In this document: one piece after another, positions 25,111 through 42,796 of the stretch
Layout: each line of letters opens with the position of its first letter
How positions within the stretch are numbered: the first letter of the stretch is position 1
DNA from: Lewinella sp. 4G2
Lineage (GTDB): Bacteria > Bacteroidota > Bacteroidia > Chitinophagales > Saprospiraceae
Direction of reading: 5' to 3'
DNA: 64,000 nt
Assembly: GCF_001625015.1 (NCBI RefSeq)
Contig: NZ_LVWJ02000014.1
Span: 2,604,001 to 2,668,000 of the forward strand
Made by a program: the position numbers and the translations under genes
Notes under the pieces: model-generated
Told to the model about the DNA's origin: nothing
Seen by the model: the letters and a program-made list of their open reading frames with translations, nothing else
Databases searched by the model: none

Positions 25111-25145
25111 GATTTTAGATTTTAGAAGCTAGATTTTAGATGATC
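25111..25145 (+). repeat. Degenerate heptamer repeat island
   Basis: Read in steps of seven: GATTTTA, GATTTTA, GAAGCTA, GATTTTA, GATGATC. It belongs with the other heptamer islands at 40122, 41041 and 42129, though the heptamer sequence differs. Confidence 0.6.
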
Positions 25146-39079: not shown

Positions 39080-39107
39080 TGGGAGGAATTAAATATCATA
39101 AAGGAAC

Positions 39108-39251
39108 GGGCGCTTGGAGAACCCCAGCAAGCCCGCTTCGCTCGGCTTCCTGGGGCCGCTCCAAGACCCTGAAGCCTACCTTTAGTAGGGTCTCGGAGCG
39201 GCCTGGGCATTCGCCGCGAAGCAAGCGAATGCTCAGGTTCTCCGAGCGCCC
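39108..39251. repeat. REPIN-like inverted pair of structured hairpins
   Basis: Two inverted copies of a 62-64-base hairpin flank an 18-base spacer (39170-39187). Ends GGGCGCTTGGAGAACC (39108-39123) and GGTTCTCCGAGCGCCC (39236-39251) match as an inverted repeat, as do GGCCGCTCCAAGACCC (39154-39169) and GGGTCTCGGAGCGGCC (39188-39203). Within each half, CTTGGAG pairs with CTCCAAG on the left and CTCGGAG with CTCCGAG on the right. The inner stems (AAGCC/GGCTT and GCATTCGC/GCGAATGC) differ completely but both pair, around loops sharing GCGAAGC (in opposite orientation). The element lies between two convergent genes, a usual place for REPs. No transposase is nearby. Confidence 0.7.
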
Positions 39252-39262
39252 GGGCATAAGAG

Positions 39263-39560: not shown

Positions 39561-40994
39561 ATGACCAAACCCACAACGGAAAAGCAACTCGGCACCCTCA
39601 CCGGCCCCGTCCTCCTTTTTGGAGGTGCCTACTCCAACTTCCACGCCCTGGAAGCACTGAAGGCGGAGGCGGATCGGCTGGGAATACCACCTTGCAATAT
39701 CATCTGTACCGGTGATACGCCGGGCTATTGCGCGGACCCGGAAGCGTGCCTCGACCTCATCGAGAAGTGGGGCATCCACAGCATCGCTGGCAACGTCGAG
39801 ACCAATCTCGTTAACGGTACCGACGATTGCGGCTGCGGCTTCGGGGATGGCTCCCGCTGCGACATGTTCGCCAAGCTGTGGTACACCTACGCCGCCAAAA
39901 ACGTATCCCCCAAAAACCTGGCCTTCATGGCGGGCCTACCGGACTTCCTTCGATTCCAGTACGCCGGAAAAGAAGTCGTTGTTCTCCACGGCTCCCCCCG
40001 CCACCAATCCGAATTCGTGTGGGCAAGTACGGAGGCAGCCTTGAAAGCTCAATTTTGTAAGGACGTCCACGCGGACGTAGTCGTTGCTGGGCATTGTGGA
40101 CTTCCGTTCCTTGATGAGTTGCAAGTATCGAGTGGCGAGGGTCGAGTTGCAAGTGGCGAGTTGCGAGTAGCGAGCGAAGCGAGAGTAGCAGCGGAGCAAA
40201 TCGAGAATCGAGAATCGCTTATCGAGAATCGAGAATCACGCAGTGCCGCGAGAGTAGCAGCGGAGCAAATCGAAAATCAAATATCACATATCGCATATCG
40301 CATATCCCATTGGGTCAACCCCGGAGTAATCGGCATGCCCGCCAACGACGGCACCCCCCGCACCTGGTACGCCATCCTCAACGATACGGACGGTCTTGAA
40401 GTCACCTTCCACGCCCTCAACTACGACCACGAAGCCGCCAAATCCAGCATGCTGGACGACCGCCGTCTCCCCGTTTCCTACGCGGCTACCCTCACCACGG
40501 GGATTTGGGACAATACGGAGATCATGCCCCCCACCGAAGAGGCGCTGGAAGGCATTCCGCTCAACGCCACCTTACTTGCCACTCAACTGCGCACCCGCGG
40601 CAGCGCCCAAAAAACGAACGTGAAAACGGACCGGACCAACCGGAATAAACCTCAAGAAATGAATACGTACTCCAACCCCAAAGACCTCCGCACCTTCGGT
40701 AAGATCGCCGAATGGCAGGAAGAAATGGGCAATAAATTTTTCGACTGGTACGCTGGCGTGACGGAAGGCGATACGGCCCTCACCGAACGGGAGAAAGCCC
40801 TGATTGCCCTGGCCGTTAGCCATGCCATCCAGTGTAGCTACTGTATCGATGCTTACACCACTAACTCCCTCCAGGCCGGTGCCGACGAGGAACAGATGAT
40901 GGAAGCCGTCCACGTCGCCGCCGCGGTAAAGGCCGGCACCACCCTCATTTACGCCCGGCAGATGCAGCGCCAGGTAGAAAAAATCACGATGTAG
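39561..40994 (+). CDS. Metallophosphoesterase fused to arsenosugar-associated peroxidase-like (CMD/AhpD) domain
   Basis: This is one 477-residue frame. Residues 10-350 are a calcineurin-like phosphoesterase: TGDTPGYCADP, AGNVE, DDCGCGFGDGS, VLHGSPRHQ, AGHCGLPF and NPGVIGMPANDGTPRTWY. Its first motif is GGAYSN where classical members have GDxHGN, as in the PYSN subgroup. Residues 189-250 (62 residues, ARVAAEQIEN twice) interrupt this domain and are made of heptamer-repeat DNA. Residues 367-477, from an internal ATG at 40659, form a complete 111-residue carboxymuconolactone decarboxylase/AhpD-like domain with CxxC at C425 and C428 (CSYCIDAYT), as in the peroxidase-like proteins found beside arsS. 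A copy of the 18-bp motif encodes part of the linker. arsS follows. The two parts may also be made separately from 40659. Confidence 0.8.
   Translation: MTKPTTEKQLGTLTGPVLLFGGAYSNFHALEALKAEADRLGIPPCNIICTGDTPGYCADPEACLDLIEKWGIHSIAGNVETNLVNGTDDCGCGFGDGSRCDMFAKLWYTYAAKNVSPKNLAFMAGLPDFLRFQYAGKEVVVLHGSPRHQSEFVWASTEAALKAQFCKDVHADVVVAGHCGLPFLDELQVSSGEGRVASGELRVASEARVAAEQIENRESLIENRESRSAARVAAEQIENQISHIAYRISHWVNPGVIGMPANDGTPRTWYAILNDTDGLEVTFHALNYDHEAAKSSMLDDRRLPVSYAATLTTGIWDNTEIMPPTEEALEGIPLNATLLATQLRTRGSAQKTNVKTDRTNRNKPQEMNTYSNPKDLRTFGKIAEWQEEMGNKFFDWYAGVTEGDTALTEREKALIALAVSHAIQCSYCIDAYTTNSLQAGADEEQMMEAVHVAAAVKAGTTLIYARQMQRQVEKITM
40122..40310 (+). repeat. Heptamer-repeat island absorbed into the metallophosphoesterase gene
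   Basis: Steps of seven are visible: GTATCGA, GTGGCGA, GGGTCGA, GTTGCAA, GTGGCGA, GTTGCGA, GTAGCGA; then TCGAGAA several times; then ATATCAC, ATATCGC, ATATCGC, ATATCCC. A longer unit GCGAGAGTAGCAGCGGAGCA occurs at about 40179 and 40248. The insert is about 186 bp, a multiple of three, and keeps the frame. Confidence 0.8.
40591..40608 (+). repeat. Dispersed 18-bp motif, copy 7 (coding, TRGSA frame, at the domain junction)
   Basis: GCACCCGCGGCAGCGCCC encoding RTRGSAQ in the linker between the phosphoesterase and the peroxidase-like domain, 51 bases before the internal ATG at 40659. Confidence 0.7.
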
Positions 40995-41058
40995 TAACGT
41001 AGTACGGTAGTCGGGTAGTAGCGTAGTACGCCGCCCGACTACAGACTAAAGACTAAAA
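40993..41058 (+). repeat. Octamer/heptamer island before arsS
   Basis: Octamers GTAGTAAC, GTAGTACG, GTAGTCGG, GTAGTAGC, GTAGTACG are followed by heptamers ACTACAG, ACTAAAG, ACTAAAA up to the arsS ATG. GTAGTCGGG (41007-41015) pairs with CCCGACTAC (41034-41042). The island fills the whole gap between the fused gene and arsS, so the arsS leader is made of repeat. Confidence 0.75.
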
Positions 41059-42129
41059 ATGGCTATCAAGCAAAAAACCAAATCCCTAAGCGCCACCGGC
41101 AACGCGCTGAGTTCCTCCTTCGTGCAACTGAACGTGCTGAACGGGAAGGACATCTCCGACGCAAAATTCCCCGTCTTCGCTAGCAAGCTGGCCGAGCAGG
41201 GGCACGCGCCCTTCAAGCCAACCCAGATTGAGATCTTTCAGCTGAATATCGGGAAGCTCTGTAACCAAACCTGTGCCCACTGCCACGTCGACGCCGGGCC
41301 GGACAAACGGGTGGAGAACATGAGCCGAGAAACGCTGCAGCAGTGCCTCGACATGATCGCCGCCATCCCGACGGTCACGACCGTGGACATCACCGGCGGG
41401 GCGCCCGAGATGAACCCTCACTTCCGCTGGTTCGTCGAGGAATGCACGAAGATGGGCAAGGAGGTGATCGACCGGTGCAACCTCACCATTATCATGGCCA
41501 ACCCGAAGTACCGGGATTTGCCCGAGTTTCTGGCCAAGCATAAGGTTCACGTTGTCAGCAGTTTGCCCTATTTCTCCAAGGCACGCACGGACGGGCAGCG
41601 GGGCGACGGTGTCTTCGAAGACTCCATCAAAGCCCTCCAACACCTTAACGAAGTCGGCTACGGCAAAGAAGGAACGGACCTGAAACTCGACCTCGTCTTC
41701 AACCCCTCGGGCGCTTATCTGCCAGGAAAACAGGAGACTTTGCAAGCGGAATTCAAGCGCCAATTGGATCGGAAGTTCGGCATCGTCTTCAACGAACTTT
41801 TCGCCATCACCAACCTACCGGTGAGTCGTTTCCTGGACTACCTCCTTGAAACGGGCAACTACGAAGAGTACATGGAAAAGCTTGTGGAAGCCTACAACCC
41901 CATGACCGTCGATAGCCTGATGTGCCGCAACACCATCTCCGTCAGTTGGCAAGGCTATCTCTACGACTGTGATTTCAACCAGATGCTCGAACTCAAAGTC
42001 GCCGCCAAAGGCCAGCACATTACTGATTTCGATGTCGCCGAACTCACGAACCGGAACATCGTCCTGAACCAGCACTGCTACGGGTGCACGGCGGGGGCGG
42101 GGAGTTCGTGTTCGGGAGTGATTAATTAG
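41059..42129 (+). CDS. arsS: Arsenosugar biosynthesis radical SAM enzyme ArsS
   Basis: ArsS transfers a 5'-deoxyadenosyl group to dimethylated arsenic on the way to arsenosugars. The 356-residue protein has the radical SAM cysteines C68, C72 and C75 in KLCNQTCAHCHVDAG, then VDITGGAPEMN. The family's C-terminal extension carries MCRNTISVSWQGYLYDCDFNQML and the ending CYGCTAGAGSSCSG (C340, C343, C351). In many relatives one of these cysteines is selenocysteine; here ordinary codons are used throughout. The upstream gene carries the peroxidase-like partner domain. ArsM, the methyltransferase that supplies the substrate, is not in the window. The gene ends directly in a heptamer-repeat hairpin. 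Confidence 0.9.
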   Translation: MAIKQKTKSLSATGNALSSSFVQLNVLNGKDISDAKFPVFASKLAEQGHAPFKPTQIEIFQLNIGKLCNQTCAHCHVDAGPDKRVENMSRETLQQCLDMIAAIPTVTTVDITGGAPEMNPHFRWFVEECTKMGKEVIDRCNLTIIMANPKYRDLPEFLAKHKVHVVSSLPYFSKARTDGQRGDGVFEDSIKALQHLNEVGYGKEGTDLKLDLVFNPSGAYLPGKQETLQAEFKRQLDRKFGIVFNELFAITNLPVSRFLDYLLETGNYEEYMEKLVEAYNPMTVDSLMCRNTISVSWQGYLYDCDFNQMLELKVAAKGQHITDFDVAELTNRNIVLNQHCYGCTAGAGSSCSGVIN

Positions 42130-42194
42130 TCTGTAGTCTGTAGTCTACAGTCTGTAGTCGAGCCACTACAGACTACAGACTACAGACTATAGAC
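42129..42194. repeat. Heptamer-repeat hairpin filling the arsS-hemJ gap
   Basis: Left arm 42129-42158 is built from AGTCTGT heptamers and right arm 42165-42194 from ACTACAG heptamers. They pair over 30 bases with about three mismatches around a CGAGCC loop. It spans exactly from the arsS stop to the hemJ stop, so it may end transcription from both sides. Confidence 0.75.
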
Positions 42195-42796
42195 TATAAA
42201 CTTTCACCCCTCTTAGCCTTATAGGCCACCGCCCCCCGATACACCAGACCACAAAAGATCGCCACCCCAATACCGAGGTAGACGTAATTCAACTCCCCCA
42301 CCTTGCCGAATACCGCGATGAAGGGAATGGCCACGAGGAAGAGGGTAGGGAACTCGTTCCACAAACGCAGTTGCCAGGGGCTGAAGGGGAGCTCGCCATT
42401 TTGCATGGGGAACATGAGTTTGGCCTTGGTGTAGACCTGGTAAACGACGAGGCCGAGCACGAGTGCAATTTTGACGATCAACCAGCCCGGCGTTCCGCTC
42501 TGGAGATAACCGGGGTTGAGGGCCACCATCGTCAGGCCGGCCGTCCAGGTGATCATCATGGCGGGGTTGACGATGATGCGGTAGACGCGGTCTTCCGTCC
42601 CGGAATATTCTTCGTGGAGAACTTCTTTGCGGATACGGCTGCGCGTGGCGGCTTCACTATCGCCAATTTCCGGAGCTATAATCTGGGATTCGGCGTGGTT
42701 CACCAGCACCCGGCCGAGGTAAAGCAGGCCGGCGAACCAGCTGGCGAATCCAATGACGTGCAGGGCTTTAGCGATGAGAATGATGGTAGCGCTCAT
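42194..42796 (-). CDS. hemJ: Protoporphyrinogen IX oxidase HemJ-type membrane protein
   Basis: HemJ oxidises protoporphyrinogen IX to protoporphyrin IX in haem synthesis. The 200-residue product has a first helix ATIILIAKALHVIGFASWFAGLLYLGRV with the conserved histidine (H13), then DRVYRIIVNPAMMITWTAGLTM, GWLIVKIALVLGLVVYQVY, LRLWNEFPTLFLVAIPFIAVFG and a last helix YVYLGIGVAIFCGLVYRG. This is the UPF0093/CopD-like arrangement. An insert of about 35 residues (NHAESQIIAPEIGDSEAATRSRIRKEVLHEEYSG) after the first helix makes it longer than proteobacterial HemJ, as in other Bacteroidota. It converges on arsS and is divergent from tamB, with 218 bases between their starts. Confidence 0.85.
   Translation of the reverse strand: MSATIILIAKALHVIGFASWFAGLLYLGRVLVNHAESQIIAPEIGDSEAATRSRIRKEVLHEEYSGTEDRVYRIIVNPAMMITWTAGLTMVALNPGYLQSGTPGWLIVKIALVLGLVVYQVYTKAKLMFPMQNGELPFSPWQLRLWNEFPTLFLVAIPFIAVFGKVGELNYVYLGIGVAIFCGLVYRGAVAYKAKRGESL

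Follow-up and report, generated by a model that had tools for sequence, protein, structure and literature searches.

The origin of new protein segments from non-coding DNA has mostly been deduced from ancient events. A 64,000-nucleotide stretch of the Lewinella sp. 4G2 genome (hereafter the window) raises the question within a single gene, in which degenerate 7-base repeats were originally predicted, from the letters alone, to have been absorbed in frame into a metallophosphoesterase. Is this segment repeat DNA, how did it come to lie in the gene, and is it a solitary case? The reading that we favor, with a probability of roughly three in four, is that a dispersed composite heptamer element was copied into a tolerant hairpin turn, was kept in frame and is likely translated, and that the turn is a hotspot for such changes.

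A composite heptamer insert in a metallophosphoesterase/AhpD-like gene

Domain and family profile matches identify the host gene (39,561 to 40,994, forward strand) as a metallophosphoesterase/AhpD-like fusion of 477 aa. Its N-terminal part is a calcineurin-like metallophosphoesterase by both family match and fold: Metallophos_2 (PF12850) matches at 3.3e-6 with 27.6 bits against a cut-off of 27, PF00149 scores 19.1 bits, below its own cut-off of 21.5, and the nearest PDB folds are 3rqz and 3qfm (E 6e-12 to 2e-11), the latter being the Ap4A hydrolase SapH. The C-terminal part is an arsenosugar-associated peroxidase-like (AhpD) domain (CMD, 1.4e-13; TIGR04169, 145 bits against a cut-off of 120). 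The next gene on the same strand, arsS (41,059 to 42,129), encodes the ArsS radical SAM protein of arsenosugar biosynthesis (TIGR04167, 445 bits). Across the 21 aligned relatives, GGxYSN stands at the first phosphoesterase motif (residues 21 to 26), where a D-x-H metal site would be expected; this replacement may mark an enzyme with a different metal set or substrate.

Tandem-repeat detection (TRF), a lag-7 test, and blastn against the own genome delimit an in-frame insert at 40,116 to 40,310 (forward strand), in the turn between GHCGLPF and WVNPG. It starts at GAGTTGC (40,116, residue 186) and ends at residue 250 (40,310), within a few bases of the limits given in the original prediction. TRF reports period-7 arrays at 40,129 to 40,174 (with periods of 14 and 28 from 40,116), 40,199 to 40,237, and 40,281 to 40,310. 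At lag 7, 108 of 194 positions match over 40,110 to 40,310. Dinucleotide shuffles average 50.6 matches (SD 6.3; z 9.0), and not one of 2000 reached the observed score; lag 7 was the best among lags 2 to 24. The proposed degenerate heptamer array is thus real, but it is not a simple one. Three modules, all on the forward strand, alternate with two linkers: GAGTNGC-type heptamers (module 1, 40,116 to 40,174; TRF periods 7, 14, and 28), linker 1 (40,175 to 40,198), which ends in GCGGAGCAAATC together with the first bases of module 2, just as in an intergenic copy, L034, AATCGAG-type heptamers (module 2, 40,199 to 40,237; TRF and genome pattern matches), linker 2 (40,238 to 40,280), in which sequence comparison finds a second GCGGAGCAAATC as well as the degenerate units that open module 3, and ATATCGC heptamers (module 3, 40,281 to 40,310; TRF).

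The encoded peptide also repeats at lag 7 (21 matches, z 6.8), since triplet reading of a 7-base unit returns to its starting point after 21 bases; this is what the earlier idea, that the odd ARVAAEQIEN/ENRES peptide comes from reading each heptamer in all three frames, would lead one to expect. Whatever the frame, a tandem 7-base repeat yields a peptide with a 7-residue period, and about half of the possible heptamer cycles (0.504) are stop-free on both strands. In the window gene, the host reading frame is open across the insert; one of the other two forward frames contains stops and the other does not. No inverted repeat of at least 10 bases (seed 8) was found in 40,090 to 40,330, and the TAACTGA pair TAACTGATAACTGA was absent from the window at up to one mismatch.

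The insert has many kin in its own genome. blastn (E 0.01) placed it in at least 66 positions including itself, a lower bound since 40 of the 97 candidates were scored, and these group into at least 39 clusters, at least nine of which contain both orientations. The pattern AATCGMRAATCGMRAATCG, with up to two mismatches, gave 132 matches, many of them overlapping, versus none for the reversed control. The insert is therefore genomic repeat DNA read in frame, as had been proposed, and as a period-7 direct array with dispersed copies it belongs with the dispersed heptamer arrays. One intergenic copy, L035, aligns to query positions 1 to 191 at 69% identity and has the order of the insert (GAGTNGC-type array, GCGGAGC linker, AATCGAG-type array, GCGGAGC linker, ATATC-type array). 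The intergenic copy L034 has module 1 and much of linker 1 in common with the insert, but a different second array. A near-identical donor was not found in the genome, the best other match among those scored being 88% identical over 72 query bases.

These common modules, linkers, and order make a copied composite element likelier than local slippage. Growth in place from the host codons GAG TTG (E-L), which match the GAGTTGC unit, would account for the array beginning exactly at GAGTTGC, on codons that N. antarctica has too (FLEEL). However, three different modules with like linkers, in the order of an intergenic copy, are unexpected from slippage of one unit; we consider local growth improbable and, given that the module order is common to intergenic copies, reject slippage as the sole origin. 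The overlap of the first unit with GAG TTG makes microhomology at insertion possible.

An open frame over such repeats says little by itself. Among 60 insert-like loci (30 of the 66 blastn places and 30 of the 132 pattern matches, which overlap), only two were followed and preceded by an open frame of at least 240 nt, and both were the window gene itself. Across 29 overlapping loci, 112 of 174 frames of the own-genome heptamer copies were open, compared with 85.4 in shuffles; the longest copies have few or no open frames (zero of six for both L035 and L050). Of 20 repeat loci in N. persica, 9 (one of them the host gene) are flanked on both sides by open frames of at least 240 nt, in several cases plainly as a consequence of stop-free repeats. 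As open frames over repeats prove little in general, we relied on homologous flanks rather than on openness.

Predicted structure and probable translation of the insert

A structure model of the window protein built from a 21-sequence alignment had a mean pLDDT of 70.7 and a pTM of 0.63. It places the insert between strands at residues 183 to 188 and 248 to 253, with helices at 198 to 218 and 224 to 244, at moderate confidence (block pLDDT 67 to 74, falling to 51 at residues 191 to 200). The model supports a position in the turn of a predicted beta-hairpin, and its order of elements suggests that the insert projects from the protein surface, where it may perhaps form a helical hairpin. For the N. 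antarctica protein, pLDDT was under 50 over the insert and the position of its nuclease domain was not interpretable.

In our reading, the insert is very probably translated and retained as part of the enzyme. The opposite view, that it is an intron, an intein, or a translational-bypass element that remains untranslated, has a precedent of sorts: the authors who described the in-frame ShiLan insert of a phage methylase weighed whether some unknown process removes it, but conclude that it is retained (PMC11855218). In the window we found no Rfam match at gathering scores, and the RNA folding of the insert was no stronger than that of shuffles (z 0.28), on which grounds an RNA element was rejected as its identity. 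An intein was likewise rejected, as neither Pfam nor NCBIfam (E 0.01) reports an intein family in the window protein, although the same Pfam library finds one in another gene of the genus (L217). All 12 fillings of this turn in the clade described below are, moreover, in frame and stop-free. An untranslated insert is accordingly very hard to credit.

Just as improbable is an artefact of assembly or gene decay. Repeats are common misassembly sites, and several of the relatives compared below are MAGs; the window gene, however, lies inside a 4.17 Mb contig and retains family-conserved residues on both sides of the insert, and long fillings occur in isolate genomes too (N. antarctica, N. persica, and N. 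agarilytica).

Turn length and fillings in the relatives

The two flanks, AGHCGLPF and WVNPGVIGMPAND, had been expected to lie close together in homologues, and they do: the turn from LPF to W is eight residues long in all 18 homologues outside the clade of the window (seven sister-clade species, strain SD302, one Saprospiraceae MAG, and nine sequences of other genera), a set that stops short of more distant matches (~30% identity). None of the 18 carries a similar segment at this place; the presence of one in distant species had been named beforehand as what would count against the prediction. Within the clade, which comprises 12 members (the window and L092 to L102, including Phaeodactylibacter luteus; 4 of the 12 are MAGs), the turn measures 9, 9, 13, 16, 23, 23, 23, 41, 61, 66, 67, and 214 residues. 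The 9-residue turns belong to Lewinella sp. W8 and P. luteus and the 13-residue turn to N. aurantiaca, all three nested among long-loop members. The P. luteus (L097) fusion protein falls within the Neolewinella clade, beside Lewinella sp. W8 (99/94), a placement that, on sequence, hints at gene transfer or at taxonomy.

The fillings differ in kind. That of N. antarctica has 214 residues with a DUF559 domain inside (PF04480, 1.3e-25) and carries at its two ends inverted copies (92%) of a repeat that is scattered through the same genome. With at most 40 candidates scored per genome, matches in the own genome numbered at least 32 for N. antarctica (including the cassette itself and its two ends), at least 136 for N. 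persica (itself included, with the right part of the filling accounting for almost every match), and at least 97, itself included, for the MAG L2bin2, whose filling consists of CAACCTG heptamers (z 5.2). AAACCTC heptamers (z 3.7) fill the turn of a further MAG, ANT-68, behind the same 12-base linker GCGGAGCAAATC as in the window element; here the only match in the own genome is the filling itself. Period 7 is local in two other fillings, the heptamer-like tail of N. agarilytica (2 of 2000 shuffles; 161 of 2000 for the whole filling) and N. persica (4 of 2000; whole filling 170 of 2000), and no period 7 was detected in R3bin139, N. lacunae, Co246, or N. aurantiaca. The original picture of a snapshot therefore holds as far as repeat DNA in frame is concerned, but the case is not a one-off, as clade relatives hold other repeats or a nuclease cassette at the same place.

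One insertion or several? On a tree of 363 columns from which loop and linker columns were left out, the window and N. antarctica proteins are sisters (100/98) with 85% identity, the two 9-residue members pair (99/94), and the 13-residue member groups with two heptamer-bearing ones (100/99). We compared ten fillings pairwise, setting aside the two of nine residues. At E 0.1, no similarity was found within any of the four sister pairs (window/N. antarctica, N. agarilytica/R3bin139, N. persica/Co246, and ANT-68/L2bin2), a comparison that has little power for the fillings of 48 and 69 bases. Non-sisters, by contrast, have pieces in common. The N. persica and L2bin2 fillings are 72% identical over 86 columns (E 1e-7), and their units CTGCAAC and CAACCTG are rotations of one heptamer cycle; the window filling has 25 bases (84%), close to the right end, in common with N. 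agarilytica, it shares 22 bases (86%) that include the linker GCGGAGCAAATC with ANT-68, and it has a related unit in opposite orientation to that of L2bin2 (81% over 26 bases). Such pieces suggest that the fillings draw partly on a shared pool of genus repeats, and one inherited array does not explain the opposite orientation.

Both several insertions and one old insertion with heavy turnover can explain the fillings as sequenced. Under the second scheme, a single ancestral insertion at the base of the 12-member clade would later have decayed, lost length, or been overwritten through local gene conversion. It would fit with every clade member being at least one residue longer than the 8-residue turn, with the pieces common to window and N. 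agarilytica, to window and ANT-68, and to N. persica and L2bin2, and with some period-7 signal in 5 of the 12 fillings. The lack of similarity between sisters (tempered by the little power of short fillings), the opposite orientation in L2bin2, and the nested short turns of W8, P. luteus, and N. aurantiaca speak against it. We hold the single insertion to be a possible but weaker account, the sister differences and the opposite orientation favoring several insertions; the turn thus seems, from these comparisons, to be a recurrent in-frame hotspot in the clade, beyond a single snapshot.

The favored reading, then, would run as follows. A composite heptamer repeat, dispersed in the genome of this Neolewinella relative, would have been copied into the turn of a predicted beta-hairpin in the fusion gene. 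It would have persisted there because neither its length nor its sequence closes the frame and because additional residues are tolerated in the turn; only in-frame, stop-free products would survive such copying. The turn would have gained, lost, or exchanged repeat DNA several times in the clade, including the DUF559 cassette of the sister species. Both copying as the mechanism and the structural tolerance of the turn are what we infer from these data.

At this one turn, 18 homologues show the short state and close relatives show ten longer states, of 13 to 214 residues; repeats kindred to the fillings can still be recognized in several genomes. The fate of absorbed repeat DNA, in terms of folding, cost, and loss, thereby becomes testable in marine bacteria, several of which are isolates. 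As a side observation, the N. lacunae fusion protein (L096) has APPFGGVGG-type residues in its interdomain linker that resemble another repeat absorbed in frame.

DUF559 cassettes and comparison with known systems

The N. antarctica cassette has counterparts across the genus. In 21 genus genomes, PF04480 (E 1e-5) gave 14 matches in 10 genomes, 12 of them in open frames longer than 600 aa; the own genome of the window had none at this threshold. By NCBIfam, the hosts are IleRS (L212 and L213), MetH (L214), DnaE (L217), MurC (L218), and MurE (L225); by sequence, L215, L216, L220, L222, and L224 are also MetH, and L219 is the N. antarctica metallophosphoesterase (MPE) enzyme. All six MetH cassettes are read between MetH anchors, the DnaE copy lies inside an intein (PF14890), and L223 lies in a frame of 301 aa. 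Most of the cassettes in L212 to L220, L222, L224, and L225 are flanked by LSPGPSPGERGE or SPLSPGEGPGERE-like repeat peptides.

In 80 family genomes (two of the genus included, both without matches), 47 PF04480 matches were found in 28 genomes at E 1e-8, and only three lay in frames longer than 400 aa, in host genes that Pfam identifies as MnmE, MetH (here at a different site), and an N6 DNA methylase (L274, L276, and L277). A Fisher test of 12 of 14 in the genus versus 3 of 47 in the family gave p 2e-8; it treats as independent matches of which some are related, and the genus threshold (E 1e-5) was laxer than that for the family (E 1e-8). In a DUF559 tree that is weakly resolved (of nine inner branches, two are starred and six open; L225 and L221 were left out), the MPE cassette and the MetH cassette of N. 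lacunae fall together (90/90), which suggests jumps between hosts.

The idea that DUF559 cutting may open the turn site is attractive. A homing scheme would have the nuclease cut the turn and the cassette home into it, the heptamer and palindromic fillings being scars or plugs that destroy the cut site. The cassette does occupy the same turn in the sister species, housekeeping genes of the genus carry DUF559 in frame, as does a DnaE intein, the kind of place in which one expects a homing nuclease, and the suggested host jumps would agree with it. At other cassette sites, however, the plugs are missing. Of 20 genomes, 18 have a 41-residue stretch at the IleRS site and 2 have the cassette there, and the MetH linker has the cassette in 6 of 19; lag-7 and local tests detected no period 7 in any of the cassette-free sites (13 of 19 MetH linkers and 18 of 20 IleRS sites; the lowest result was 77 of 500 shuffles). 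A general rule by which DUF559 sites get plugged by heptamers was rejected on these counts, and the enzyme of the window is so far the only one in which heptamer filling has been observed; the genome that contains the window, moreover, has no DUF559 match at E 1e-5. We therefore judge the homing scheme unlikely.

A broader proposal that we put forward as tentative is that the genus has protein-embedded mobile DNA. Repeat-bounded DUF559 cassettes would enter enzymes (MetH, IleRS, MurC, MurE, and MPE/AhpD) in frame, apparently without inteins, and be retained in the mature protein, and lone palindromic or heptamer repeats (in HsdR, a CusA-like gene, and the MPE turn) would be non-autonomous forms, scars, or plugs. 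If true, the window insert would represent a single phase in a cycle of homing nucleases and repeats succeeding each other at the same protein loop.

Repeats in frame within genes are known from Rickettsia and heptamers in ORFs from Beggiatoaceae; in the literature searched, we found no earlier report of one loop filled differently in sister species. Rickettsia palindromic elements (RPEs), as one review describes them, are dispersed palindromic repeats of about 150 bp with a conserved peptide, inserted in frame in unrelated genes and predicted to be compatible with the fold (PMC10969869). The window insert is likewise dispersed repeat DNA in frame inside a gene; unlike an RPE, it is a direct heptamer array without an inverted repeat of at least 10 bases, hence not palindromic, and relatives carry other fillings in the turn of its host.

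The closest parallel for the unit is the TAACTGA heptamer, described by MacGregor (2015) as direct repeats in Beggiatoaceae, Cyanobacteria, and Bacteroidetes, mostly intergenic with a few in ORFs (PMC4679880). There too, heptamer repeats encode peptides with a 7-residue period, five Bacteroidetes are reported, some with other heptamers alongside, and repeats within ORFs lie mainly at protein ends, an RNA polymerase beta'-like protein being the exception (PMC4679880). The window insert is also a heptamer array that encodes a 7-residue-periodic peptide, but its units differ from TAACTGA, it lies in the middle of a domain, and both the short turn and its changing content are documented in relatives.

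The phage ShiLan domain is an in-frame methylase insert that hides an HNH nuclease out of frame; by prediction, it stays in the enzyme and protrudes from it as a loop (PMC11855218). The N. antarctica filling resembles it as an in-frame insert with a nuclease; in contrast, DUF559 shares the reading frame of its bacterial host enzyme, and the filling of the window itself has no recognized nuclease. In the literature searched, largely without subscription papers, we found no report of one protein turn with different repeats in sister species and, in the portions of the sources available, none of DUF559 cassettes in bacterial housekeeping enzymes; a search on Lewinella with intergenic tandem repeats returned nothing.

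On the sequences at hand, repeat DNA inside genes is apparently a recurrent feature of these bacteria, and at one loop it seems to have been repeatedly taken into protein. In N. antarctica, the dispersed palindromic repeat also occurs alone, without a nuclease, in frame in a type I restriction HsdR (L193) and in the gene of a CusA/CzcA-like transporter (L194).

Other heptamer families are present in the window. GACTAAA heptamers lie at 41,037 to 41,057, just ahead of the arsS start codon, and a GATTTTA period-7 array is found at 25,111 to 25,141. A GC-rich intergenic stretch at 39,100 to 39,260, upstream of the enzyme gene, looks hairpin-capable by eye. At the end of arsS, TRF reports an array of TAGTCTG heptamers followed by its own inverse (42,127 to 42,196, no strand assigned), a family distinct from that of the insert and almost wholly intergenic, which could form a hairpin or a terminator.
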